From assembly GCF_003663825.1 (NCBI RefSeq), contig NZ_RCCC01000001.1:752501-816500 (forward strand): a DNA stretch of 64,000 nucleotides, read 5' to 3'. A program made the translations under genes and the position numbers. The notes under the pieces are model-generated. The model was not told where the DNA came from and did no database searches. It saw nothing but the letters and a program-made list of their open reading frames with translations. The DNA is from Acidovorax sp. 106. GTDB lineage: Bacteria > Pseudomonadota > Gammaproteobacteria > Burkholderiales > Burkholderiaceae_C. Of the stretch, positions 49,452 to 64,000 are shown one piece after another. Each line of letters begins with the position of its first letter. Within the stretch, counting starts at the first letter, position 1.

Positions 49452-49695
49452 GCGCTAAGGATACGCCTGTTACATTGAAAATTGAATAGATATAAGAATG
49501 GATAAATAGGGCCAATGGGCACACAAACAAAGCGTTGGTGACCTCGCGCTGCAGATGCACCGCGCCCACTGGACAAGCTGTCCACTGCGCTCGCAGGGAT
49601 GCCCCCTATGATCAACAGACGCAGCCCGCTTCACGCTGGCGGTGCGCTTTTCGGGCGCTTTGTGCCCACTGTTCCATCACACCCAACCTGACACC

Positions 49696-51111
49696 ATGGC
49701 CCAGCTCAAATCCAAGTGGACCGACTCGGTTTACACCCGCGTCAAGGTACTCAACCACTCCAAGGGCCTGCGCCTGGAGCGCTTTACCAGTGAAGAACTG
49801 GACCAAATTGCCGACTGCGACGATGTGCTCGAACTGACGCTGGACCGCAGCAAGATGAAAGAGCCCTTGGACTTGGCACGCCTCGCCCATATCACCAGCC
49901 TGCGCAAGCTGGAGCTGCAGGGGCTGAAATTCACCAACCTCCAGGCGCTGCGGGCACTGCCCCACCTGGGGACGCTGATCATCGACAACTGCCGGTTCTC
50001 AGACTTTGATGCACTCAACGGCTTCAAGGTGTTGAGCCACCTATATCTGTGGCACAACAAGCTGACAGCGTTTCCGGCGGGGCTGGACCTGCCGCGATTC
50101 AAGGCCCTGTTCATATCGGACAACCTCATCTCAGACCTGGGCTTTGTGCAAAGCTACCCCGGCCTGGCCACGCTGTACCTGAAACGCAACCAGATCACCG
50201 ATCTGTCCCCGTTGGCCGCATGCCCGGCCGTGGTGGACCTGGACGTGCAGGAAAATCCCGTCACCAGTCTGGCACCGCTGGCGGGCAGAAAATTCACCCG
50301 CTTCTATGCCGACCCACAGCACCGCGAAGAGCAGATCGCCCTGCGGCTGCAGCAGGATGAATGGCCCAGGGGGGAAACCATCACAGAGGACGAGAAGGCA
50401 CCGCGCCACGTGGCCGACCTGATGGCGAAAAATGATTGGCCAGCGCTCTACGCCATCACCGATCTGGCGCTGCTGGGCCGGGCCTTCGCTAGCTTATTGA
50501 ATCGGCGTGGCGACGCAGCGACACTGCGCGGTGCACTGGCGCACCCGGCGGAGGGCGCATTCCACGCCATGGTCGCCAACGGCCTGCGCCCGGACAAAGC
50601 GATGTCGGACTTGCTGGCGTACGTGCTCTGTGAATACGGCGAACGCACCATCGCGCCGATGACCGAGTGCTTTTACACGGCGCTGGCACGGCCCACCTAC
50701 CAGGAGGAGTTCTACGTCGGCAAGATGGAGTCCGAGCACGAGATCATCATGTGCGTCCTGACGGGTATCGCCAGCCCGGCCTGCACCGAGCTGTTCCTCG
50801 CCTTCTTCAACGAGCGCGAGGGCTTCTCTGAGAACTATCTGTACCTCTGCAAGCACCTGCTCGACGTGGTGGGCAAGACCCAGTCTGCGCAGTTGGTGGA
50901 GCCCATCATGGACCTGCTGCGCTTTGAGCAGAAAATCATCGGCGGCGACCCTGCCTTCATGAAAAAGATATTCAAGGCCATCGGCCAGCTGGGCACCAAG
51001 GCCGATGCCGCCGTGCTGGCCAGCCGCTTCCATGCGGCCGCCGAAGAAAGACCGGATGTGCTGCTGGCGTATGAAGCCACGCTGGCGCGTTTGGAGAAAA
51101 AGAAAGCCTGA
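49696..51111 (+). CDS. Leucine-rich repeat protein, paralogue 1
   Basis: A 471-residue soluble protein. Residues about 30-190 contain about six leucine-rich repeats of bacterial type (LRKLELQGLKFTNLQALRAL, FKALFISDNLISDLGFVQSY, and LATLYLKRNQITDLSPLAAC). The C-terminal half is helical (AIGQLGTKADAAVLASRFHA near the end) and ends in a lysine cluster. It is a clear paralogue of the protein at 55366-56772: both share the WTD start, VLNH, LDQIADCDD, the repeat layout and the ending KAIGQLG-KADAAVLASRF. It stands alone on the plus strand, unlike its paralogue, which is in the seven-gene operon. Confidence 0.85.
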   Translation: MAQLKSKWTDSVYTRVKVLNHSKGLRLERFTSEELDQIADCDDVLELTLDRSKMKEPLDLARLAHITSLRKLELQGLKFTNLQALRALPHLGTLIIDNCRFSDFDALNGFKVLSHLYLWHNKLTAFPAGLDLPRFKALFISDNLISDLGFVQSYPGLATLYLKRNQITDLSPLAACPAVVDLDVQENPVTSLAPLAGRKFTRFYADPQHREEQIALRLQQDEWPRGETITEDEKAPRHVADLMAKNDWPALYAITDLALLGRAFASLLNRRGDAATLRGALAHPAEGAFHAMVANGLRPDKAMSDLLAYVLCEYGERTIAPMTECFYTALARPTYQEEFYVGKMESEHEIIMCVLTGIASPACTELFLAFFNEREGFSENYLYLCKHLLDVVGKTQSAQLVEPIMDLLRFEQKIIGGDPAFMKKIFKAIGQLGTKADAAVLASRFHAAAEERPDVLLAYEATLARLEKKKA

Positions 51112-53254: not shown

Positions 53255-53659
53255 TGTTGTGTGGTTCTTTCGCAAGCGATGGAGAGCGAAAGGGTTCGGG
53301 CCCTGGAGGCCGCTGCGGGCGGTGTGTGTGAGCACGCCATGCGGCACGGCACTGCACCGAAGGACTTGCAGCAGGGCCGCGGCCCCATCCCTTCGCATGA
53401 CAGGCGCCAAGGTGCTGGCGCACGCCATGCCCTTACTGTAGAAGGCCGCGCGCATAACGATAAATGGTCATTCGCAATAAGCTCGGACTCAGCTGTTTTC
53501 GGCGTGAGCTCATGCCCCACAGCTATGTGCGCGCCCTGCCAGCCGCGGTCTGCAGGCACAGCGCAAGGCGGCAAAATCATCAAAAATGATAGCTACCAGC
53601 GCTTATTTAATAAGTGCTAGAGCCCGTTTTCATTCAAAACCCGAGTGACAGCTGCGCGA
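53255..53659. other. 405-base gap between the CysB-type regulator and the ankyrin gene
   Basis: No convincing gene on either strand. It holds the upstream region of the CysB-type gene and, at 53580-53633, a copy of palindrome family 1 that directly follows the 3' end of the seven-gene operon. Confidence 0.6.
53580..53633. repeat. Dispersed palindrome family 1
   Basis: TCAAAAATGATAGCTACCAG, CGCTTATTTAATAAGTGCTA and GAGCCCGTTTTCATT pair into a hairpin 26 bases beyond the last stop of the operon; it could end transcription there. Confidence 0.88.
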
Positions 53660-55306
53660 TCAGTCCGCCAGAAGTTTCTGCGCCGCCTTGTTGCGCTTGG
53701 ACACCGCCAGCTGCAGCGGTGTGCGGCCCTGGCGGTCGCAGTGGGTGCGGTCGGCCCCAGCCTGCAGCAACAGGGGAATGCAACCGGTCGCCTTGTGCTC
53801 CACCGCCTCATGCAAGGTGTTGCCTCCGTGATGCAGCACCCGGTTCGGGTTGGCACCATGGGCCAGCAGCAGCGCCACCTTGGCTTCAGACTGGGCGTGG
53901 ATAGCGGCCTCCAAGGGGGTGTGCTGCGCATCGGCGGGCGGCTCGGCGGGCACGCCCAGCGCGAGCAGCATGTCCACCATCTCCACAGGCCGGTCCACGA
54001 TGCGGCTGCTGAAATCCTGCAGGCAACTGGTGGCGGCATTCAGCCAAGCGGCGTCCCGCGCCGGAAATGCCTCGGGTGCGCTGCGCTGCACCAGGTCTCG
54101 CATCGTGGCCACGTCCGTGCCTTCGTGCTTGGTGGTGCATTGCGCCAGCAATCGGGACTCGGCCATGGGGTCGATGCACATCAGCGCATGGTCCCCCGGC
54201 CGCCACAGCCGGTCCAACGCAGGGAGGTTCCCCTCGTCCACGGCCCTGCCCAGCAAGCCATGCCGATGGGCTTCGTCCGGCGGGGCCTGCGCCAGCAGCG
54301 CGTCCAGCCGCGCATGGTCGTGGTACGAGATGGCGTGGAGTTGCTGCTCTGGGGCGTCGCACTCCAGCGCATAGCGCGGCCAAATCACCTGACCGCCGTG
54401 CGCCATGAGCAGGTCGCGCAGCGCCTGGTGCACCCCCCCGGCCAGGGCCGAATCCCCGTGGTGGCTCACTGCGTTGACCGCTGCGCCCCGCTCCAGCAAC
54501 CACTGCGCGGCCTGCACGGCCATGGTCACCGGCTTGCCTAAATAGTGCGTTGCATCGGCCAGTTGCATCAAGGGCGTGCGTCCCTCGTCGTCCACAGCGT
54601 TCACCTCCACACCTGCGTCCACCAGCGTCTGCATCAGCGCAATGTCAAACGCCCGGGCCGCGCAGTGCAGCGGAAATACGGGCAATGTGTAGCTGGGCAT
54701 GTGGGTGACCAGCGCCAGGGGGTCGGGCCGCGCCCCGGCTTGCAGCAGGGCAATGATGGCGTCGGTCGGCAACACGCCGCTGGCCTTGCCCGCCTGCGGT
54801 GTGAGCAAATGCACGATGAGTGGGCGGTGGTAAAGCACGGTGTTGGGGTCCAGGCCGTGGTGGTGCACCAGGTTCAAGACCTCGCCGTAGTGTTCTTTGG
54901 AGAGCAACTGGTGCACTTCTTCCAGCGGGTCCAGCTTGCGCACAGCGGCCTCAAACTGCTTGCGCGTGACGGGCTTGGGGCCGTTGAGCCACAAGCCTTC
55001 CGCCTTGGGGCCGTTGTGCCATTCGCAGCCAAAGAGCTTCGCGCCTCGCTCCATCAACCCGGGCGGCCAGCTTGCAGCGGCCAGCAGGTTCCATGGCCCG
55101 AGGACAGCCAGCTCGGCACACAGCTGCGCGGCGCCCGCAAACTCAAAAGAGACCCCAGCGTCTTCGCCCAGGCCGAGCATGGTGCCCAGCACACGGGCCT
55201 GGTCTGGCAGCGGCAGTTGGGCGGTGGCCTGGGCCTCGGCAGCCCAGGCGGCAGCCTGCACACGGGACGCAAAATAGACGGTGTAGTGCAGGCGGGACTC
55301 AGACAT
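53660..55306 (-). CDS. Ankyrin repeat protein (operon gene 7)
   Basis: A 548-residue soluble protein. The N-terminal 150 residues are not recognised. Ankyrin-like repeats then run to the end, including LVDAGVEVNAVDDEGRTPLM, WLLERGAAVNAVSHHGDSAL, LLLAHGANPNRVLHHGGNTL, and LLLQAGADRTHCDRQGRTPL. The last ends in KRNKAAQKLLAD. Ankyrin repeats bind proteins. It is the last of seven closely spaced genes, 59 bases after the LRR gene stop. No enzymatic domain or signal peptide is seen. Confidence 0.85.
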   Translation of the reverse strand: MSESRLHYTVYFASRVQAAAWAAEAQATAQLPLPDQARVLGTMLGLGEDAGVSFEFAGAAQLCAELAVLGPWNLLAAASWPPGLMERGAKLFGCEWHNGPKAEGLWLNGPKPVTRKQFEAAVRKLDPLEEVHQLLSKEHYGEVLNLVHHHGLDPNTVLYHRPLIVHLLTPQAGKASGVLPTDAIIALLQAGARPDPLALVTHMPSYTLPVFPLHCAARAFDIALMQTLVDAGVEVNAVDDEGRTPLMQLADATHYLGKPVTMAVQAAQWLLERGAAVNAVSHHGDSALAGGVHQALRDLLMAHGGQVIWPRYALECDAPEQQLHAISYHDHARLDALLAQAPPDEAHRHGLLGRAVDEGNLPALDRLWRPGDHALMCIDPMAESRLLAQCTTKHEGTDVATMRDLVQRSAPEAFPARDAAWLNAATSCLQDFSSRIVDRPVEMVDMLLALGVPAEPPADAQHTPLEAAIHAQSEAKVALLLAHGANPNRVLHHGGNTLHEAVEHKATGCIPLLLQAGADRTHCDRQGRTPLQLAVSKRNKAAQKLLAD

Positions 55307-55365
55307 GGTGCGGGTTCAACGGCAAGGGCAAAACACAGCGGTATGCGGCGGCTGGCTGCAGCGCA

Positions 55366-56772
55366 TCAGCTCTTTTTCTTTTCCAGCTTCTTGAGGGTGG
55401 CCTCGTACGCCTCGGCCACATCGGTGCGGGTTTCGGCAGACACATCAAAGCGGCTGGCCAGCACCGCCGCATCGGCCTTGGCACCCAACTGGCCAATGGC
55501 TTTGAAGACCTTTTTCATGAAGGCTGCGTCGCCGCCCAGGATGTGCTTTTCACAGCGCAGCAAGTCGATGATCGGCTCCACCAGTTGCGGTGACTGGACT
55601 TTGCCCACCACGTCGAGCAAGCGCTTGTAGTGGTGCAGGTGGGCCTCGGAGAAGCCCTCGCGCAGATGGAAGAACGCCAGGAACAGGTCGGCAAACGCGG
55701 GGATGGGAGCCTCTGCCAGGATGCGGGCGATGGTGGCGTGCTCGAGCTTCAGTTTGCCCGCATAGAACGGTTCGTACTCCGGGTAAAAGGCCAGCTCAGC
55801 GTGAAAGCTCTGGGTCAGCGGGGCCACCAAGTGCTCGCCAAAGCTGCTGAGCACCGACACCAGCAGCTTGGACTCTTCCCAGTAGTGCGGGCGCAGGCCA
55901 TGGGTCACCATCGCATCGAACGCGCCGGGGGCCGGGTGTGCCAGCGCGCCGCGCACCATCTCCTCGTCAAAGTGCCCGTGCACCAGGTGAGAGAACGCAT
56001 CGCCCAGCAAGGCCAGGTCGGTGATGGCGTAGAGCTGCGGCCAATCCTTGGTCTCCATCAGCTTCGCGATGCGCAAGGCTTCGATGCTTTCTGGGGTGCG
56101 CACATACGGCTCCTCAGGCAACTCCAGCTGCAGGGTCACCCGCTCGGCGCTGAGATGGCTGCTCACATGCAGTCGCTGGTAGCGCCGCCCTGCCAGGGGC
56201 GCCAGCGTGGCCAGCGGGTTGTCATCGACCCACAGGGATTCCAAAGCCGCGCAGTGGGCTAACGGAGCCAGGTCAGTGATCCGGTTGCCGTTCACATGCA
56301 AACATTTGAGGGTGGGGTAGCTGGCAACGAACGACAAATCCGTGATGCGGTTGTGCGACAGGTACAGGCTCTCGAGCCTGGGCAACTGGAGCCCCGCCGG
56401 GAAGTGGGTGAACTTGTTGTTCCACGCGAACAGCGTCTTTACATTCAGGCCGTTGAGTGTCTCGAAGTCTTTGAAGTCGCAGTACGCAATGGTCAGCGAG
56501 TTCAGATGGGGCAAAGCTTTGAGGGCCTGCAGGTTGGTGAACTGCAGGCGCTCCAGGCTCAAGCGCCGAAGCCCCTGGATGTGAGCCAGGCGCGACAGAT
56601 CGACCGGCTGCGCCGTGCGGTTGCTGCGCAGGTCGATGTCCAGGATGTCATCGCAGTCGGCGATCTGGTCCAGATCGGCATCGGTGAATTTCTCCAGGTG
56701 CAGGCCGTCGGCATGGTTCAGCACACGGATGGGGCTATGAATGCGGTCGGTCCATTTGGGCTTGGTGGTCAT
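55366..56772 (-). CDS. Leucine-rich repeat protein, paralogue 2 (operon gene 6)
   Basis: A 468-residue protein with about six leucine-rich repeats in residues 30-190 (LRRLSLERLQFTNLQALKAL, LESLYLSHNRITDLSFVASY, and LKCLHVNGNRITDLAPLAHC), then a helical second half ending AIGQLGAKADAAVLASRFDV. It is paralogous along its whole length to the protein at 49696-51111. ATG 56772 matches the paralogue's N-terminus; the frame's extension to 56931 overlaps the next gene's end and is rejected. It lies between two ankyrin genes with 59-61 base gaps. Confidence 0.87.
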   Translation of the reverse strand: MTTKPKWTDRIHSPIRVLNHADGLHLEKFTDADLDQIADCDDILDIDLRSNRTAQPVDLSRLAHIQGLRRLSLERLQFTNLQALKALPHLNSLTIAYCDFKDFETLNGLNVKTLFAWNNKFTHFPAGLQLPRLESLYLSHNRITDLSFVASYPTLKCLHVNGNRITDLAPLAHCAALESLWVDDNPLATLAPLAGRRYQRLHVSSHLSAERVTLQLELPEEPYVRTPESIEALRIAKLMETKDWPQLYAITDLALLGDAFSHLVHGHFDEEMVRGALAHPAPGAFDAMVTHGLRPHYWEESKLLVSVLSSFGEHLVAPLTQSFHAELAFYPEYEPFYAGKLKLEHATIARILAEAPIPAFADLFLAFFHLREGFSEAHLHHYKRLLDVVGKVQSPQLVEPIIDLLRCEKHILGGDAAFMKKVFKAIGQLGAKADAAVLASRFDVSAETRTDVAEAYEATLKKLEKKKS

Positions 56773-56833
56773 GGCGTCAGGCTGTGAAAAGGGGATGGAG
56801 GGGACCGGTGGCTGCGGCAGCGCCGACCTGCCT

Positions 56834-58255
56834 TCAACCCAGGGTTTTGAGGTAGCGGACGCAAAGCTGGCCGATGGCATCGCACAGCACATCGTTGGTG
56901 GGTGGTGCACCTGGCGCCATGGGCAAATCAATCGCTTCGCGCAGCACCCAGTCGTCGCCCTCTACCTGCGAGAAGCGGATGCGCATGACAGACCAATCGA
57001 AGACATGGACACCCATTTCCACCGCGCCGCTGCGGCTGAGGTACGACTTGGTGCGCGACAGCTTCAGGCCACGGAAGTAGTCGTCGTATTCCAGGTACAA
57101 CAGGCCAGGCGGCACACGCGGGTCTTCGCCCGAACCCAGCCGCGCGATCACGTCCTTGAGGCAGGTGCGCAGCCAATCCGGGTATTGGCTGGAGGTCCAG
57201 TCCGTGGGCCCGTCGATCAATCCGGGCGCGCGCTCCCAGGTGGCGCGCTGGGCGGTGCCGTCTGCGGCCTTGGGCTTGGCGGGCTTTTTGGGTGCTACCG
57301 AGGTGGTCAACACCGCCACTCGGGCCTCGTACTCGGTGCCACGGAACAGGCGCACATCGGCAGCCACGAGCTTGCCTTGGGCCGCCAGGGCCTCGGCCAG
57401 CACGGCGGCCACATCCAGGTTGCCAGCGCTGACGGCCAGACGCAGCGGGGTGCGACCACGGGCATTGGCAGCGGCGGGGTCCAGGCCCCATTCGAACAAC
57501 TGGCGGGTGGTGGCGACAGGGTCGACCCCTCGCTGCCACGCCACCGAGATGCCAGCGCGGCTCAGGTTCAGACCGTCCACATCGCCAGCACAGTGCATCA
57601 GCGCGTTGGTGCCTGCGGGGGTGATGAACTGCACATTGGCGCCGCGGTCATTCAAAAAGCGCAACAGCGGCACACTCCCCATGTAGGCGGCCATGAGCAC
57701 CGGGTTGTACATCTCGCGGTGATCCATCGCCTCGATGTCGGCACCGGCCGCCAGCAGCATATCGACCGCCTGGAACACCATTTCGGCATGCCCCGCCTGG
57801 GCGTCATCACGCCGAAATGGGATGCTGCAAATCTCGCCACGCATGTCCCCCAGCCCGAGGGCGATGCACAGCGCGGGGTCCTTGGTCTTGCGGGGATCGC
57901 CCCCTGCCGCCAGCACCATACCCAGCCGCTCCAAAGAGCGCCCCCCGGTATCACCCAACAACTGCTCACAACACACGGCCAAAGGCGTGGCATTGCGGTT
58001 CTTGCGCTTGTTGGGATCAGCCCCACGCTCCAGCATCAAGCGCAGCAACGCGAGTTGTGCGTCCATGCGCTGAGCGGCACAAGCGTCGTCCGGGCCATCG
58101 GAGTACACCCAGTGGGCGTTGCAGACCCACTGCGACGCGGGGTACTGGGACACGCTGATTCGGTCGGGGTGGACGCCGGAGCAGACCAGGCGCTCTATTT
58201 CGGCCATGAGCGCATCGAATCCGATGTCGTGTTCGAGTGTGAAAGAAGTGGCCAT
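56834..58255 (-). CDS. Ankyrin repeat protein (operon gene 5)
   Basis: A 473-residue soluble protein. Ankyrin-like repeats occupy about residues 65-290: LRLMLERGADPNKRKNRNAT, MLLAAGADIEAMDHREMYNP, LRFLNDRGANVQFITPAGTN, and EWGLDPAAANARGRTPLRLA. A charged Lys/Pro linker (about 320-340) leads to a C-terminal domain of about 130 residues (LYLEYDDYFRGLKLSRTKSY and GVHVFDWSVMRIRFSQVEGD) that I do not recognise. It starts 33 bases after the ATPase stop and is clearly different in sequence from the other ankyrin gene. Confidence 0.85.
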   Translation of the reverse strand: MATSFTLEHDIGFDALMAEIERLVCSGVHPDRISVSQYPASQWVCNAHWVYSDGPDDACAAQRMDAQLALLRLMLERGADPNKRKNRNATPLAVCCEQLLGDTGGRSLERLGMVLAAGGDPRKTKDPALCIALGLGDMRGEICSIPFRRDDAQAGHAEMVFQAVDMLLAAGADIEAMDHREMYNPVLMAAYMGSVPLLRFLNDRGANVQFITPAGTNALMHCAGDVDGLNLSRAGISVAWQRGVDPVATTRQLFEWGLDPAAANARGRTPLRLAVSAGNLDVAAVLAEALAAQGKLVAADVRLFRGTEYEARVAVLTTSVAPKKPAKPKAADGTAQRATWERAPGLIDGPTDWTSSQYPDWLRTCLKDVIARLGSGEDPRVPPGLLYLEYDDYFRGLKLSRTKSYLSRSGAVEMGVHVFDWSVMRIRFSQVEGDDWVLREAIDLPMAPGAPPTNDVLCDAIGQLCVRYLKTLG

Positions 58256-58288
58256 GGGAAACTATGAACAGGTCAAAAAATGCCAGGG

Positions 58289-60493
58289 TCAGGCCTTGGC
58301 CAACACCGCCAGCTCTTGGCGCAGCAGCAACTGCACCTCGGTTGGCTCGAACTGGCCCTGCAGCAGCGGGATGGCGAAGCGGTATTCAGCCTCTTGCTTG
58401 CGCAGCACGTAGGCCAGTTGCAGCCGGGCCAGCGACTGGCGCAGGGCCTGCGCGTCGGCCATGATGCCGTGGCTTTGCAGCAGCTGCGCCAGGGCCACTA
58501 GGCTGGTCTGCCCGGTCTGGGCGGTGTGGTAGACCACCACACGGTCGAGACGGCAGGCGGCTTCGTCCTGGCTCAGGCGCCCCCAGCCGGCCAATGCGTC
58601 TTGCACCGCCTGCGAGGCCAGGGCCTGGTTCAGGTGGTGGGCTTCGATGGCGCGCTCGCCGGGTTGCAGGGCCTCCAGGCATTCTTGGCACAGGATGGCC
58701 ACCAGGTTGGCGCGCTGGCCGCTGGCATCGATGAGGCGCTCGACCAGCGCATCGCTGGCAAAGCCCAGGCGCAGGCGGCGCAGCGGCTCGGTGGCCAGTT
58801 CGCGGCAGGCGGCGCGCTCGAGCCCGCCGATGGTCAGCACTTCGCCAAAATTGCGCAGGGGGCTTTGGTAGTCGAGCACCGCGGTGGCATACAAATCCCA
58901 GAACCCTGCCAGCATGAACCAGCAGCGGCCCTCTTCGCTGAGCGAGCGCAGGGTGGACAACTGCGCATAGCCTTGGTCCGACTCGGCACGGAAGAACTGG
59001 TCGGCCTCGTCGATCAACAGCACCAGCCGCTTGCCCACCGCCTGCGCCTGCAGGTGGGCCACGATGTCTTCGAGCGTGGTGTGGGCGGGCAGGCCCAGTT
59101 GCAGCGCCAGGCGTGGGGCCAGCCGGTGGTCGCGCAGCGATACGTAGTGGCACACGGTGTGCGGGTGGCCCTGCAGGCGGCGCTGTACGGCTTTGAGCAA
59201 GCTGCTTTTGCCCAACTGGCGCCCGCCCACCACCAGGTAATTGGCGGGCTCTCGGGTGACCACGCGGGCCAGCAGCTGCGCGCGGCCAAAGAACGAGCCT
59301 TCGCGCGTGACGCCACCGCGCGTCTGGTACGGCGAGATGCGGGTGATGCGCAGCTGGGTGGACAGCAGGCGCAGCAGCACCTGCAGGGCCTGGCCGCCCA
59401 GCAGCCATTCGGTCAGGCTGGCGCTGTCCACCATCACATGCAGGTTGGCGCTGTCTTCGCAATGGGCGCGTAGCAGGGGGAACGGGGCCTCAAGGCTGTG
59501 CTCGCTCAGCACCAGCAGCACGTCGCTGCCAGTCTGCGCAGCACGCAGGCTTTGCACCAGGGCCGCTTCGTCGAGCCCCGGCGTGGGCACCAGCACCAGG
59601 CAGCGGTCCAGCGACACGGGCAGGTCGGGGGCAAATTGCCACTCCAGCACCACGCCAGGCAGGGCCCAGTCGGCACTGGTCTGCTGGCGGGCCACCACTT
59701 TATCGGCCAGGGCATGGGCCAGTGCGACACCGCCGCTTTGGGCAGATTGCACGGCGTTGCGCCAGTCGGCCGTGCGTATCTGGGCCGCCAGCAAGGTGCC
59801 CTGCAGGCGGCCCACCATACGCAGCAACTTGTCGAGCTGGGGCAGCCGGGCCAGCGGTGTGCGCCGCAGCCGCGCTGGCCGCAGTTGCGCAGGTCCGATG
59901 AGCGGGTGGCGCAGGAACCATACAACCGCCCCGCCCACAAAGATCAGACCGCACCAGAGTATGAGGGAGCGCAGCCAGCCAAACGGGTCGCTGGCAGGTG
60001 CAGGTGTAGGTGCGGGCGCAAAGTCGTCGGCAGCGTTTTCCAAGCAATTGATGGGCAGGTAGCCCGCTGGGATGGGCGGGCGCCCAGGGCGACAGGACCA
60101 GGTGGTGGTGCCTGGCGTGAGCCGCAACAGAACCTGCGTGCCCGAGAGCTTGCCCAGCTCGGGGTTGGGCAGAACGTCGGCCTGCAACTGGTAGGGCCCT
60201 GGCGAGGTCACGCGCAGCAAGCGCTGGCCCGTGGGCGGGGCATAGCGTGCGATGTCTTCAGGCCAGTGCCCCTCTTCGTTGGAGGCCTGCATCAGTGCCA
60301 CACGCCACTGCACCAGCTCACCCCACACCGGCCCGGCGCCTTCTGCGCCCAGCACTGCGCCCTTGGTGGCAGGGTTGAGCTTGGGGGTAAGCACGGCGCT
60401 ACCAACGAACAGCGTCACTGCGGCAATGACCACGCCACGCAGCACAGGGCGCGAGAGCAGTGGGCTCAGCAACAGGTTCAATCGTTCGAGCAT
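58289..60493 (-). CDS. Membrane-anchored STAND-like ATPase with a pilin-like domain (operon gene 4)
   Basis: A 734-residue protein. A membrane segment (about 20-36) leads to a periplasmic domain (about 44-155). Its end, TTTWSCRPGRPPIPAGYLPI then NC, gives the W-x-C ... Y-L-P-x-x-C disulfide loop of type IV pilins; EEGHWPEDIARY also fits. A second membrane segment (about 174-194) returns to the cytosol. After about 200 residues comes an ATPase: Walker A LVVGGRQLGKSSLLKAV (Lys near 429), Walker B RLVLLIDEADQF (Asp near 495), and a winged-helix-like C-terminus. ATG 60493 overlaps the previous gene by 16 bases. The layout suggests a sensor that couples an outside signal to the ATPase; this is inference. 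Confidence 0.82.
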   Translation of the reverse strand: MLERLNLLLSPLLSRPVLRGVVIAAVTLFVGSAVLTPKLNPATKGAVLGAEGAGPVWGELVQWRVALMQASNEEGHWPEDIARYAPPTGQRLLRVTSPGPYQLQADVLPNPELGKLSGTQVLLRLTPGTTTWSCRPGRPPIPAGYLPINCLENAADDFAPAPTPAPASDPFGWLRSLILWCGLIFVGGAVVWFLRHPLIGPAQLRPARLRRTPLARLPQLDKLLRMVGRLQGTLLAAQIRTADWRNAVQSAQSGGVALAHALADKVVARQQTSADWALPGVVLEWQFAPDLPVSLDRCLVLVPTPGLDEAALVQSLRAAQTGSDVLLVLSEHSLEAPFPLLRAHCEDSANLHVMVDSASLTEWLLGGQALQVLLRLLSTQLRITRISPYQTRGGVTREGSFFGRAQLLARVVTREPANYLVVGGRQLGKSSLLKAVQRRLQGHPHTVCHYVSLRDHRLAPRLALQLGLPAHTTLEDIVAHLQAQAVGKRLVLLIDEADQFFRAESDQGYAQLSTLRSLSEEGRCWFMLAGFWDLYATAVLDYQSPLRNFGEVLTIGGLERAACRELATEPLRRLRLGFASDALVERLIDASGQRANLVAILCQECLEALQPGERAIEAHHLNQALASQAVQDALAGWGRLSQDEAACRLDRVVVYHTAQTGQTSLVALAQLLQSHGIMADAQALRQSLARLQLAYVLRKQEAEYRFAIPLLQGQFEPTEVQLLLRQELAVLAKA

Positions 60494-61707
60494 GATTCCA
60501 GCACCATCAAACCGGCCTCGCGCACGATGGGGCAGCGCCAATGCAGCCGCGCAGCGTCACCCGCGCCGCGCACGTGGATGAGGTTGCCCCAGAACAGCCG
60601 GCGCAGGTTGTCGTCTTGCAAGTAGGGGCGGGCACGGCCCAGATCAGGGGCCTGCAGCAGTTGTGCCAGGCGCTGGCGCGAGGCCGGTGCCTGCGCCAGC
60701 GGCAAGAAGGTTTGCCACAGGCGCGCACTGCCCAGCAGGTGGCTGCGCAGCGCGCCCGCAGCCACCACATCGCCCTGCAGTGCGGCGGTGCCGTGGTCTA
60801 CCAACCATTGCAGCCCCTCTTCAAACAATGCGGGGTGCGCACCGCTGAGGTCTTGCAGAGCGGCCAGCACGGGCACGGCCCAGGACTGCTCGGGCCAGCG
60901 GTGGCGGGCCAGCACCACCAGGTCGTCCAGCGTGGGCTCGGGCCAATGGTGGACCTGGGCGATGTTGAGCAGCGACAAGTCGCCGCTGCGGTACTTGAGG
61001 TCGGCCAGCGCCTCGCCGCCGCACAGCAGCAGGTGCAGGCGGCCGCTGTGCATTTCGCTCAGGCTGCGCAAAATGCCCGCCAGGGTTTCGCGCAGTGCAG
61101 GGGTGCCCTGCTCGAAGCGGCTGACCAGGCAAAACAGCCGCTCGCCCGCGAGCAAGCGCTGCTCCAGCGCGGCTTCAAATTCATAGTCGGAGGTGACTTC
61201 GCCCAGCCCACACTGGCGGCCGATGGCAGCAAAGTATTCGTCGGCCGCCGTGCTCACGCTGTAGGGCGGCTGGATGTGCAGCACCGCGCCCTCGCCGTAC
61301 TGCGCGCGGGCACGGGCCAACAGCTCTTGCCGAAACGGCGGCTGCCCCCAGTGCGCGGGCGACAGCAGCAGCGAGATGGGGTACGGCATGGCCTGTGCCA
61401 GCTGGGCAAACACCTTGTCCTGGAACGCCGCAAACGGCTGCGCCCCCACCGATTCGGCCTGCAGCGGAAACTCGGGCTCAAACCCTGCCGCGCTGAGCAG
61501 GCGGTTGGACTCGGTCTCCGTCAAGCGCAGGTAGCGGGTGCAGGCCACCACACGGTCACGCGAGCGGGGGTTGGGAGCTGACACACCATTGCGCCAGTTG
61601 TTCACGGCTTCACGGCTCAGGCCAATTTCCGTCGCCACCCCCGAGGCGCTGGCACGGATGCGCCGCATGTAAAGCGAGAGGAGCACGGAGAAAGAATCGC
61701 TGGCCAT
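60478..61707 (-). CDS. HTH protein with a degenerate ATPase-like region (operon gene 3)
   Basis: A 409-residue protein. Residues about 5-75 form an XRE-type helix-turn-helix (ASGVATEIGLSREAVNNWRN). The middle (about 110-270) follows the strand order of a STAND/AAA core but lacks Walker A: the position reads PISLLLSPAHWGQPPFRQEL, and the Walker B position reads ERLFCLVSRFEQG. A sensor-like LHLLLCGGEALADLKYR follows. The C-terminal 130 residues are helical. It may be an ATP-independent DNA-binding partner of the neighbouring ATPase. Start uncertain (61707, 61752 or 61761). Its last 16 bases overlap gene 4. Confidence 0.72.
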   Translation of the reverse strand: MASDSFSVLLSLYMRRIRASASGVATEIGLSREAVNNWRNGVSAPNPRSRDRVVACTRYLRLTETESNRLLSAAGFEPEFPLQAESVGAQPFAAFQDKVFAQLAQAMPYPISLLLSPAHWGQPPFRQELLARARAQYGEGAVLHIQPPYSVSTAADEYFAAIGRQCGLGEVTSDYEFEAALEQRLLAGERLFCLVSRFEQGTPALRETLAGILRSLSEMHSGRLHLLLCGGEALADLKYRSGDLSLLNIAQVHHWPEPTLDDLVVLARHRWPEQSWAVPVLAALQDLSGAHPALFEEGLQWLVDHGTAALQGDVVAAGALRSHLLGSARLWQTFLPLAQAPASRQRLAQLLQAPDLGRARPYLQDDNLRRLFWGNLIHVRGAGDAARLHWRCPIVREAGLMVLESCSND

Positions 61708-61802
61708 GGAGGAAAAGGAGGTACGGGCTTGAAAGGGGAACGGCCTGGACATGGCACGCACAAGGCATGCCTGTCTGTGGATGCAGGCCGTTGAAAAGGT
61801 GC

Positions 61803-62372
61803 TTAGCGCTGCAGCAGCGATTGCACCATGGGCCAGGCTTTGTAGCAGCCCAATGCGCAGGCAACAAACACCGGGCTGTAGAGCAGCAGCATGCCCAGCA
61901 CGGTATAGAAGGTGCCAACCTCCTCGTCATCGTCCTCGCTATCGCCTTCACTGCCGTCGCCCTGGCCTTGCGTCCCCTGGCTCGCCTGCACCGATGCCAG
62001 CGCAGCCGGCACCAGCATGCGGGTCTCTGGGGCATCTTGCACAGTGCTGGCACTGCCTTGGCCCGCACCTGCGGCCTTGGCCTTGGCCTCTTTGGCGGTC
62101 TGAACGTTGTCCCAGATTTCCATACCCAGCGTGGTCACCATGGCCAGCAGCGCCACCGCCAACACACCCAAGTAGGCGTAACGCAACCCCGGGCGCTCCA
62201 GCGGGTAGAAGTAGCCCGCCAGCACCACAGCCGGGGCCAGAAAGAACACGTGCGAGAGCAGCCGATTGGCATCGAACCCTGCGTCCTTGTCGAGCGCTCC
62301 AATGGCCATGCGGTACACCACGGCGCCCACGATAAACAGCACGCCTCCCCACCATTCGATTTCGGTCAACAT
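61803..62372 (-). CDS. Multi-pass membrane protein (operon gene 2)
   Basis: A 189-residue protein with about four membrane segments: residues 8-26, about 40-57, about 66-86 and about 155-180. Between the third and fourth lies an Ala/Gln/Gly-rich loop with a run of acidic residues (GEGDSEDDDEEVG-like). No family is recognised. Gaps to its neighbours are 65 and 95 bases. It may form a membrane complex with genes 1 and 4. Confidence 0.7.
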   Translation of the reverse strand: MLTEIEWWGGVLFIVGAVVYRMAIGALDKDAGFDANRLLSHVFFLAPAVVLAGYFYPLERPGLRYAYLGVLAVALLAMVTTLGMEIWDNVQTAKEAKAKAAGAGQGSASTVQDAPETRMLVPAALASVQASQGTQGQGDGSEGDSEDDDEEVGTFYTVLGMLLLYSPVFVACALGCYKAWPMVQSLLQR

Positions 62373-62437
62373 CGTTTTTGCTCCCTCGTTTTTGTGTATT
62401 CAATGTGTTGTGTTCGGCCCGGCCATCACACGCTCGT

Positions 62438-63217
62438 TCAGGAGAACAGCGACTTGCGCTCCGTGCTCATGTAGTACAGCGGCAGCGCCACCGCCAGCAG
62501 CAGGCCAAGGCCCATCCACAGCCAAAAGCCCTTGAACAGCAGCACCGTGACCAGGGTGAACAGCGCGGCGTGCACCAGCCCCTTGAAGCCCGCCTTCAGC
62601 ATGAAGATGCCCATGATTCCGTCCACCGGGTTGACGCCGCTTTCGCGCATGTCCTTGAACATGCCGACCATGGCCTCCACGGCTTCGCGGCCCTCCCGCT
62701 CACGCTCATCTTGCTGTGTACGCAGGGTACTAATAGGCACCGGCTTGCTCGGGTTCTTGGTGCCGTCGCCCTCTTCTCCCTCCCCCTCTTCTGTGTCGTC
62801 TTCAGCGCGTTCCACCACGGCCTTCAGGGTGGGGTTGCTGCCATAGAACGCGTCGCGGGTGACCCACATGCCTTGCTCGAAGAACATGCGCTCGGTCTCG
62901 CCCACCTGGTCGTAAAACACCTCGGCCACCGCAGAGCGCAGGCCATGGGCAAACAGCTCCTCCAGCATCTGCAGGGGGATACCGTCGTGTGTGCTCGAGT
63001 CAAAGCTCAGCACCAGACCCGGGCCCTGGGCACGGACGCCGTGGTTGAACCAGTCGCTGTCCCACAGCTTGCCCAAGTCTGCGCCGCCCAGCTTTTCGGC
63101 CCAGCGCTCGGCCTGCTCTGGGTTGTCAGATTGCAGGTACTGGAACACCAGCTGGCAGTATTTGAGCCGGATGGGGTCTTCAAAGAACAGGTGCAGGGTG
63201 TGGACGTTTTGGGACAT
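62438..63217 (-). CDS. C-terminally membrane-anchored protein (operon gene 1)
   Basis: A 259-residue protein. The N-terminal 130 residues are a soluble domain of unknown type (LHLFFEDPIRLKYCQLVFQY, WDSDWFNHGVRAQGPGLVLS, FDSSTHDGIPLQMLEELFAH). An acidic linker follows (EDDTEEGEGEEGDG), then two membrane segments near the C-terminus (about 210-228 and 231-249). It is the first gene of the presumed operon. A 21-base palindrome lies 107 bases upstream of its start and a divergent TetR gene beyond that. Confidence 0.7.
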   Translation of the reverse strand: MSQNVHTLHLFFEDPIRLKYCQLVFQYLQSDNPEQAERWAEKLGGADLGKLWDSDWFNHGVRAQGPGLVLSFDSSTHDGIPLQMLEELFAHGLRSAVAEVFYDQVGETERMFFEQGMWVTRDAFYGSNPTLKAVVERAEDDTEEGEGEEGDGTKNPSKPVPISTLRTQQDEREREGREAVEAMVGMFKDMRESGVNPVDGIMGIFMLKAGFKGLVHAALFTLVTVLLFKGFWLWMGLGLLLAVALPLYYMSTERKSLFS

Positions 63218-63323
63218 GGCGGGGAAATGGGGTCAAGGGCGATGGGGTGCTGTGACTGGCACGGATTGTTACCGGATATGACGCAGGCGGCGCTCTCAGG
63301 CTTGTCAGGTGCGCTGGCCACCA

Positions 63324-63344
63324 CACTGGACGAAATGTCCAGTG
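63324..63344. promoter_or_regulatory. Perfect palindrome upstream of the seven-gene operon
   Basis: Arms CACTGGAC and GTCCAGTG around GAAAT. It lies in the 222 bases between operon gene 1 and the divergent TetR gene, a likely operator or short hairpin. Nothing in the sequence says which protein binds it. Confidence 0.5.
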
Positions 63345-63418
63345 AAGGCCCCGCGAGCGTCTGGGGACATGGGTCCAGACCCCGCTCGCATCCCCAGCCC
63401 ACCCCTACAATAAACATT

Positions 63419-63430
63419 CCATCCGGATGG
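63419..63430. promoter_or_regulatory. Probable TetR operator
   Basis: The perfect 12-base palindrome CCATCCGGATGG lies 8 bases downstream of a possible -10 box (TACAAT, 63406-63411) and 9 bases before the TetR start. The position fits autorepression. Confidence 0.55.
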
Positions 63431-63439
63431 TTTGTAGCA

Positions 63440-64000
63440 ATGACAGAAGCCCACCGCCGACAAAAACAACCCGAGCTGATCCGCAGCCAACTGCTCATGG
63501 TGGTGCGCGACATCCTGGTACAAGATGGCCCCCACGCCGTGACGCTGGACGCCGTATCCCGCCGCGCCAACGTGACCAAGGGCGGCCTGCAGCACCACTT
63601 TCGCAGCAAGCAGGCCTTGCTGCAGGCGCTGTGCGATCAGCTGTTTGAAGAATTCCAGGCGAACCTGGCACTGGCGTTTGAGCACGAACCCGCCGGGCCG
63701 GGGCGCCATGCCCGCGCCTACATTCGCACCTGCTTTGACACCCACCACCACCTGAACCAGGTCGAGACCCAGCGGGCGATTGGCCTGCTGGCCCTGACCC
63801 TGCCCGAAGCACGGGAGCGCTGGCACCAGACTATGCAGACCGAGCTGGCCGCAGACGGCGAAACACCTGGCGCGGCAGACCGGCTGCTGGTGTGCCGGAT
63901 GGCCGCAGATGGCTTCTGGTTTTCGCAAATGCTGGGGGTGTATGCCCTGGACGACTCACACCGTGCCCGCATCCTGGCTTTGTTGCTGCAACTGTGCAGC
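63440..64000 (+). CDS. TetR family transcriptional regulator (cut by the window end)
   Basis: The open frame gives 187 residues with no stop before the edge. The N-terminal TetR DNA-binding domain is clear: LLMVVRDILVQDGPHAVTLD, AVSRRANVTKGGLQHHFRSK, and QALLQALCDQLFEEF. The ligand-binding part is helical and typical in length, so only a few residues should be missing. It is divergent from the seven-gene operon and may or may not control it. Confidence 0.9.
   Translation, partial: MTEAHRRQKQPELIRSQLLMVVRDILVQDGPHAVTLDAVSRRANVTKGGLQHHFRSKQALLQALCDQLFEEFQANLALAFEHEPAGPGRHARAYIRTCFDTHHHLNQVETQRAIGLLALTLPEARERWHQTMQTELAADGETPGAADRLLVCRMAADGFWFSQMLGVYALDDSHRARILALLLQLCS

Follow-up and report, generated by a model that had tools for sequence, protein, structure and literature searches.

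What a row of seven closely spaced genes for membrane, ATPase, ankyrin and leucine-rich repeat (LRR) proteins might do together is the question raised by positions 53660-63217 of a 64,000-nucleotide stretch of Acidovorax sp. 106 DNA (hereafter the window), whose source genome (G000) is one contig of 4.88 Mb. All seven open reading frames were confirmed on the minus strand, starting at 63217 (g1), 62372 (g2), 61707 (g3), 60493 (g4), 58255 (g5), 56772 (g6) and 55306 (g7), and the gaps between them (65, 95, -16, 33, 61 and 59 nt from g1 to g7) were reproduced as first described. The original prediction took the seven for one multi-protein system. Membrane proteins, a STAND ATPase, repeat proteins and a palindrome common to unlinked repeat genes are indeed found, but not as one seven-gene machine. 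Instead, g3 and g4 probably form a bipartite, autoregulated membrane STAND switch, which would control a regulon of repeat proteins via the shared palindrome.

The protein g4 (58289..60493, minus strand) consists of a transmembrane segment, a pilin-like headpiece, a second transmembrane segment and a STAND ATPase. Its description as a pilin-domain STAND-like ATPase is strengthened by a Pfam AAA_22 match (E 1.5e-10) and by the P-loop, Walker B motif and STAND/ORC-type fold with winged helix that characterize STAND NTPases. Walker A (GGRQLGKSS, residues 423-431, 59201..59227, minus strand) and Walker B (LLIDEAD, residues 492-498, 59000..59020, minus strand) were assigned by conservation. The headpiece (residues 36-151, 60041..60388, minus strand) shows a hydrophobic helix, a long helix, four strands and two conserved cysteines, with W77-P78, C134 and C150 invariant among 48 members. 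In three homologues (P0112-P0114) it matched the pilin family PF00114 over the full model length with 26.2, 27.3 and 31 bits (cut-off 22). Reading of the aligned g4 N-termini revealed no prepilin peptidase cleavage motif, and g4 was therefore not filed as a pilin. Foldseek and VIA match lists for whole g4 were taken up entirely by the ATPase part; the named close relatives of g4 are from Acidovorax. Where a membrane sensor had been envisaged to control the ATPase, this sensor is most likely g4 itself, via its pilin-like head, and we infer a topology in the inner membrane with the head in the periplasm and the ATPase in the cytoplasm.

Its neighbour g3 (60478..61707, minus strand) carries a helix-turn-helix (HTH), an eroded STAND/AAA core and a winged helix, and is a pseudo-ATPase and probable regulator. 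A predicted model (pLDDT 90.7, predicted local distance difference test) has a helical HTH region at the N-terminus, an alpha/beta core of five strands, a further helical part and the winged helix, and its Foldseek and VIA matches include plant NLRs, Cdc6/ORC and 2qen. Profile-profile comparison aligned g3 with part of the g4 ATPase (E 5.5e-6, probability 85.7). Since the Walker A and B residues are gone in the family alignment (by reading, with different residues conserved there) despite this homology, g3 is called a pseudo-ATPase: on the predicted model it is an inactive STAND protein, with the STAND fold kept and the catalytic motifs lost. This adds a STAND fold to the HTH and degenerate ATPase noticed before. 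The HTH region spans residues 6-73 (61489..61692, minus strand), with SREAVNNWRNG named as recognition helix by reading, and is better recognized in homologues than in the window protein: of 41 homologues, 29 match HTH_3 with E values no higher than 1, the lowest being 0.0022, and 18 match HTH_31, with a lowest E of 3.1e-5.

Conservation of the gene set was followed in the best 80 of 93 genome matches to a g4 profile, together with the window, L010 and L013, using genes from a codon-usage caller. With the duplicates L009, L011, L012 and L014, and L015 (the window locus once more), left out of the counts, 83 loci remained, 78 of which have g3. The latter stands immediately upstream of g4 in 73/83 loci from several orders, and the two genes overlap by 1-19 nt in 66/78 (most commonly 4 or 16). 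Acidovorax, Hydrogenophaga, Delftia, Undibacterium, Massilia, Pseudomonas, Tahibacter, Lysobacter, Pseudoxanthomonas, Stenotrophomonas and Thiotrichales all have the pair. Of 250 genomes drawn from across the family, eight matched g4, in one case weakly. Both partners exchange domains: WD40 or NHL propellers replace the pilin-like head in all eight Thiotrichales g4 proteins scanned, and in the same group the HTH of g3 is replaced by TIR (L083, L093 and L094) or CHAT-TIR (L088), or is retained in a diverged form (L084, L085 and L086). Therefore, the pair reads as a sensor on an active STAND protein (g4) and an output on an inactive one (g3). In the six Thiotrichales pairs with both assignments, NHL-headed g4 goes with diverged-HTH g3 (L085, L086) and WD40-headed g4 with TIR-bearing g3 (L083, L088, L093, L094). 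The Thiothrix pairs of L088 and L093 lie among hypD- and hypE-like hydrogenase maturation genes, by reading.

Alignment of the sequence upstream of g1 from 38 loci led to a palindrome, TKGACR-N3-YGTCMA, which in the window is present as the candidate operator TGGACGAAATGTCCA upstream of g1 (63327..63341) and as a second copy, TGGACAAGCTGTCCA (49570..49584), 111 nt upstream of lrr2 (49696..51111, plus strand), an LRR paralogue of g6 with 55% identity and a probable regulon member. Both sites and the paralogue were absent from the original prediction and are added here. The looser form TKGACN5GTCMA occurs twice in the window compared to 0.15 expected, and none of 100 shuffles reached two. In 51/78 loci the 2.7 kb preceding g3 contain the refined form, and only four copies were found in the other 1.38 Mb. 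Three of the four were assigned from their positions, namely before lrr2, before an array of DUF4132-type genes (L054) and at the farther 5' end of a longer cluster (L060); the fourth is in L072. The palindrome sits before whichever gene comes first, which may be g3 itself, g1 or a different small gene. As g3 is the only one of the seven proteins with a recognized DNA-binding domain, and as the distribution of the palindrome follows g3, we propose g3 as its likely binder, the simplest account on sequence grounds. Motif density was 1.84 per Mb in g4-positive and 1.24 per Mb in g4-negative genomes (p 3e-4), an excess amounting to a few sites per genome, while a reversed-motif control gave 0.64 and 0.63 per Mb and thus no excess.

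From the palindrome 111 nt before lrr2 we predicted that unlinked repeat paralogues carry it too. In same-genus genomes, it lies 34-176 nt ahead of the start codon of eight among nine unlinked full-length LRR or ankyrin paralogues. These nine lie outside the window; short or stop-containing g6 matches (G270, G291, G253, G286 and G266) and weak ankyrin-only g7 matches were excluded. Besides these paralogues, 11 copies were inspected in the Acidovorax sp. 106 genome (of 26 sites of the loose pattern, namely the 13 of the refined form without the two that lie in the window), as were 27 of the copies in G270, G263 and G292. The palindrome precedes orthologous genes in Acidovorax sp. 106, G263 and G292, which are 60-65% identical and show weak HEAT/LRV similarity below the Pfam cut-offs, and other anonymous families recur under it in genome pairs. 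A further ankyrin protein stands under it in G292, and a protein under it in G270 (L140) resembles the g1 N-terminus (25% identity, E 6e-4). Which genes follow the palindrome varies among the genomes examined. We conclude that the output in this branch would be transcription, with g5-g7 and the scattered repeat genes as the putative regulon.

The remaining window genes form layers around the g3-g4 core: g1-g2 are a lineage-limited membrane pair, and g5-g7 are optional and partly dispersed. g1 (62438..63217, minus strand, 259 aa) has a conserved N-terminal domain and, by reading, two hydrophobic segments near its C-terminus, and g2 (61803..62372, minus strand, 189 aa) is a poorly conserved membrane protein by reading; domain-family scans gave no family above cut-off for either. 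The ankyrin-LRR-ankyrin trio named before was confirmed by Pfam, with ankyrin repeats followed by a C-terminal region without family in g5 (56834..58255), LRR with an alpha-helical C-terminal half in g6 (55366..56772), and an N-terminal domain followed by ankyrin repeats in g7 (53660..55306), all on the minus strand. g1 precedes the pair in 38/83 loci, and different small genes occupy the g1-g2 position in other lineages. Conserved co-occurrence of genes 1-5, suggested earlier as a check, was found for g1-g2-g3-g4 in this order (32/83 loci); at least one of g5-g7 lies downstream in 15/83. Among 47 genomes of the genus, 27 were counted as g4-positive (full-length matches, of 29 by E-value) and 20 as negative, including G255 (a 43-residue fragment with a stop) and G257 (a 28% partial match). 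g1 was present in 26/27 g4-positive genomes and 0/20 others, g5 in 11 and none, always within about 560 nt downstream of g4, strong g6-family matches, linked or unlinked, in 12 and none, and strong g7 matches in 7 and none (12/14 and 7/29 genomes, with weak repeat matches excluded). These associations have Fisher p values of 2e-12 to 0.014, uncorrected for shared ancestry.

Several observations concern single genes. In the LRR proteins at 55366-56772 and 49696-51111 the C-terminal half is helical, conserved and of no recognized type, with a weak HEAT_2 match on g6 (E 0.092). Three Stenotrophomonas homologues of g5 (P0217, P0220 and P0223, 49-52% identity) come from a genus with the g3-g4 pair, yet no g5 match was found in its fetched loci. 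In L013, L018, L032, L123 and L132, g3, g6, g7 or the LRR paralogue is split into at least two frames, suggesting decay or sequencing errors. An N-terminal domain common to g1 and g7, suspected by eye, was dropped (hhalign probability 0.4%), and NCBIfam names for Legionella ankyrin effectors and internalins were rejected as far below cut-offs, with similarity limited to the repeats. A consensus scan of 53300-63700 gave no sigma-70-like promoter, and neither Rfam families nor tRNA genes were found in the window. Outside the genus, at least two tandem genes of one large family, assigned to DUF4132 by Pfam in two scanned, follow g4 in four Pseudomonas and Massilia loci (L049, L054, L060 and L061). 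A DUF5682 gene lies beyond each array, on the same contig as presumed from contig number and position, and a MoxR-type gene was seen among the four in L054 only. The four clusters resemble the yeh gene set of E. coli.

In the mechanism we propose, the pilin-like head of the membrane-bound g4, with its intact ATPase inside the cell, would feel a periplasmic event, be it the state of pilin or pilus or a pilin-binding factor. This would alter the nucleotide state of g4 and in turn the activity at the palindrome of g3, presumably a DNA-binding pseudo-STAND protein able to share an oligomer with g4. g3 would thereby control its own operon and unlinked LRR, ankyrin and HEAT-like genes, whose products may act as recognition or neutralizing scaffolds. 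The HTH protein g3 is likely the direct output of the switch; its control by g4, the signal, whether regulation is positive or negative, and the part played by the repeat proteins are what we infer.

A number of results weigh against this switch. The exact refined palindrome is missing from 27/78 loci, 15 of which have a one-mismatch form and 12 neither, the latter being L017, L042, L046, L060 and eight Thiotrichales loci; less than 400 bp of upstream sequence was present in L017, L046 and L089, and in L060 an exact copy lies farther out, at 3.2 kb. The 13 Thiotrichales loci, where g3 bears TIR or a diverged HTH, show no exact copy of the looser form; this absence speaks for the switch, though several of their contigs reach only a short way upstream, which weakens the argument. 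Common descent confounds the link between palindrome and g3. Genomes without g4 also hold sites, at the 1.24 per Mb given above, and copies such as TGGACATTTTGTCCA and TTGACAGTCTGTCAA recur across genomes (G251, G252, G253, G254 and others) irrespective of g4, so other proteins may use this palindrome too. One such copy in the Acidovorax sp. 106 genome (L116) lies, by reading, between cytochrome oxidase subunit II-like and transporter-like genes. Many genomic copies are inside genes or beside unrelated genes, probably by chance or as the site of another protein. One of the nine unlinked paralogues (L130) has no palindrome, and 25/38 g1-bearing loci have no g5-g7 adjoining. At the domain level, HTH_3 is weak on the window g3 (E 0.022, below the Pfam cut-off), the window g4 has no Pfam pilin match, and the PDB pilin matches for the g4 head have E values of 0.11-0.9 each.

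Among other explanations, the one that survives best is a conflict system against phages or competitors, related to the two-gene STAND immunity systems, in which g4 recognizes an invader and the repeat proteins are effectors rather than a means of transcriptional control. The TIR or CHAT-TIR domains on Thiotrichales g3 suit such a system, as do the predicted ATPase folds of g3 and g4, which match NLRs and CED-4, with Avs3 also among the matches, and the gene after the pair on the Parabeggiatoa contig L083 (7963-9927), downstream of the WD40-headed g4 and TIR-bearing g3, which encodes a caspase-domain protein (Peptidase_C14 with Lcl_C). Against it, the HTH occupies the position that an enzymatic effector would have in most members, and PADLOC-DB 2.0.0 gave only generic ankyrin models (PDC-M72A for both g5 and g7, Ankyrin for g7) and, for g4, AAA models with weak scores (PDC-S01, E 0.0023; mad8, E 0.017). 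No match was found in 50,697 phage records, and among 72,556 plasmid records no match spanned 80% of g4; many Acidovorax loci have their flanking genes in common, unlike mobile defence islands. We regard a conflict system as possible, though hardly the favoured account.

Somewhat more doubtful is a feedback on type IV pili, with g4 monitoring in the membrane how much pilin there is or what state the pilus is in, as PilS is reported to do, and g3 tuning surface behaviour. The pilin-like headpiece on a probably membrane-anchored ATPase fits this, but by reading no pilus gene was recognized beside the 11 inspected sites of the Acidovorax sp. 106 genome, and the propeller heads of the eight Thiotrichales g4 proteins indicate that sensing pilin is no inherent property of the pair.

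An inducible immunity arsenal, in which the ankyrin, LRR and HEAT-like proteins of the regulon would serve as orphan immunity proteins that counter polymorphic toxins and are induced at envelope attack, appears unlikely to us. The immunity classes Imm-Ank, Imm-LRR and Imm-HEAT, as well as toxin-free polyimmunity loci, are described in PMC3482391; moreover, the genes under the palindrome differ among the genomes examined. On the other side, no Pfam immunity family was found in ten regulon candidates scanned, toxins not having been searched for. The conflict, immunity and pilus-feedback explanations overlap with the g3-g4 switch. Least probable is that the palindrome belongs to another regulator in whose regulon g3-g4 merely lie while doing something else, since this would suit the sites in g4-negative genomes and recurrent copies there such as TGGACATTTTGTCCA, but not a palindrome that tracks g3 through Beta- and Gammaproteobacteria even where a different gene comes first, nor the density excess in g4-positive genomes.

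The proposed transcriptional switch of g3 and g4 combines four features, namely a STAND ATPase that bears a pilin-like head, a pseudo-STAND protein with DNA-binding output, a precise common palindrome and dispersed repeat-protein targets, which were not found together in the open-licence literature of PubMed Central (PMC). The palindrome makes its function directly testable, as it names likely targets of an otherwise anonymous system and offers a reporter for the receptor signal, and the exchange of HTH for TIR or CHAT-TIR connects transcriptional switching with effectors of the death type in a single gene pair. A bolder proposal, which we consider rather unlikely though worth stating, is that the pair is a bacterial counterpart of receptor-helper NLR pairs: the pilin-headed STAND receptor would sense surface attack and its HTH pseudo-STAND partner would induce ankyrin, LRR and HEAT-like proteins for recognition or immunity, an arsenal that is scattered and differs from strain to strain, with the pair of some Thiotrichales rewired to TIR/CHAT effectors. 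If true, the pair would head an innate immune regulon that is inducible and assembled from interchangeable modules for sensing and output.

No described system of this composition was known at the outset, which holds in the open-licence PMC literature, where no paper was found on the DUF4132/DUF5682/MoxR pairings or the palindrome sequence either. The logic of pairing active with inactive STAND proteins is described, however, and by analogy the nSTAND2 two-gene systems are the closest precedent of g3-g4. As described in PMC8195603, these are mobile operons of adjacent active and inactive STAND genes, the eroded partner being fused to variable modules, most commonly GT4 or HEPN effectors. Similarly, g3 and g4 lie side by side and are both of STAND type, with the NTP-binding motifs eroded in g3. 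Unlike what is described there, g3 bears HTH, TIR or CHAT-TIR, g4 has a pilin-like head and transmembrane segments, and a palindrome is shared with dispersed targets; GT4 or HEPN was seen on none of 41 g3 members among the families listed (25 of 29). The MoxR-vWA-iSTAND ternary systems, as given in PMC7159879, contain inactive STAND proteins with TIR, caspase-like or EAD N-termini, some of them membrane-proximal, and thus share with g3 an inactive STAND, which bears a TIR N-terminus in some Thiotrichales; they differ in that neither MoxR nor vWA was found among the seven window proteins scanned, while a MoxR-type gene was seen in L054. The word "pilin" does not occur in the main text of either paper.

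With the ATPases of animal and plant NLRs and of CED-4, g3 and g4 share the predicted fold of the ATPase region, a similarity of fold only which implies no function. The g4 head resembles type IV pilins (PF00114) in its hydrophobic helix, long helix, four strands and two conserved cysteines, and departs from them in the prepilin cleavage motif, which was not seen, and in the second transmembrane segment and ATPase that follow the head. MalT and AfsR are single-chain STAND transcription regulators, and g3-g4 likewise couple a STAND NTPase to a DNA-binding domain. Unlike in MalT and AfsR, the intact ATPase and the HTH reside on separate proteins, and the ATPase protein, g4, has transmembrane segments.

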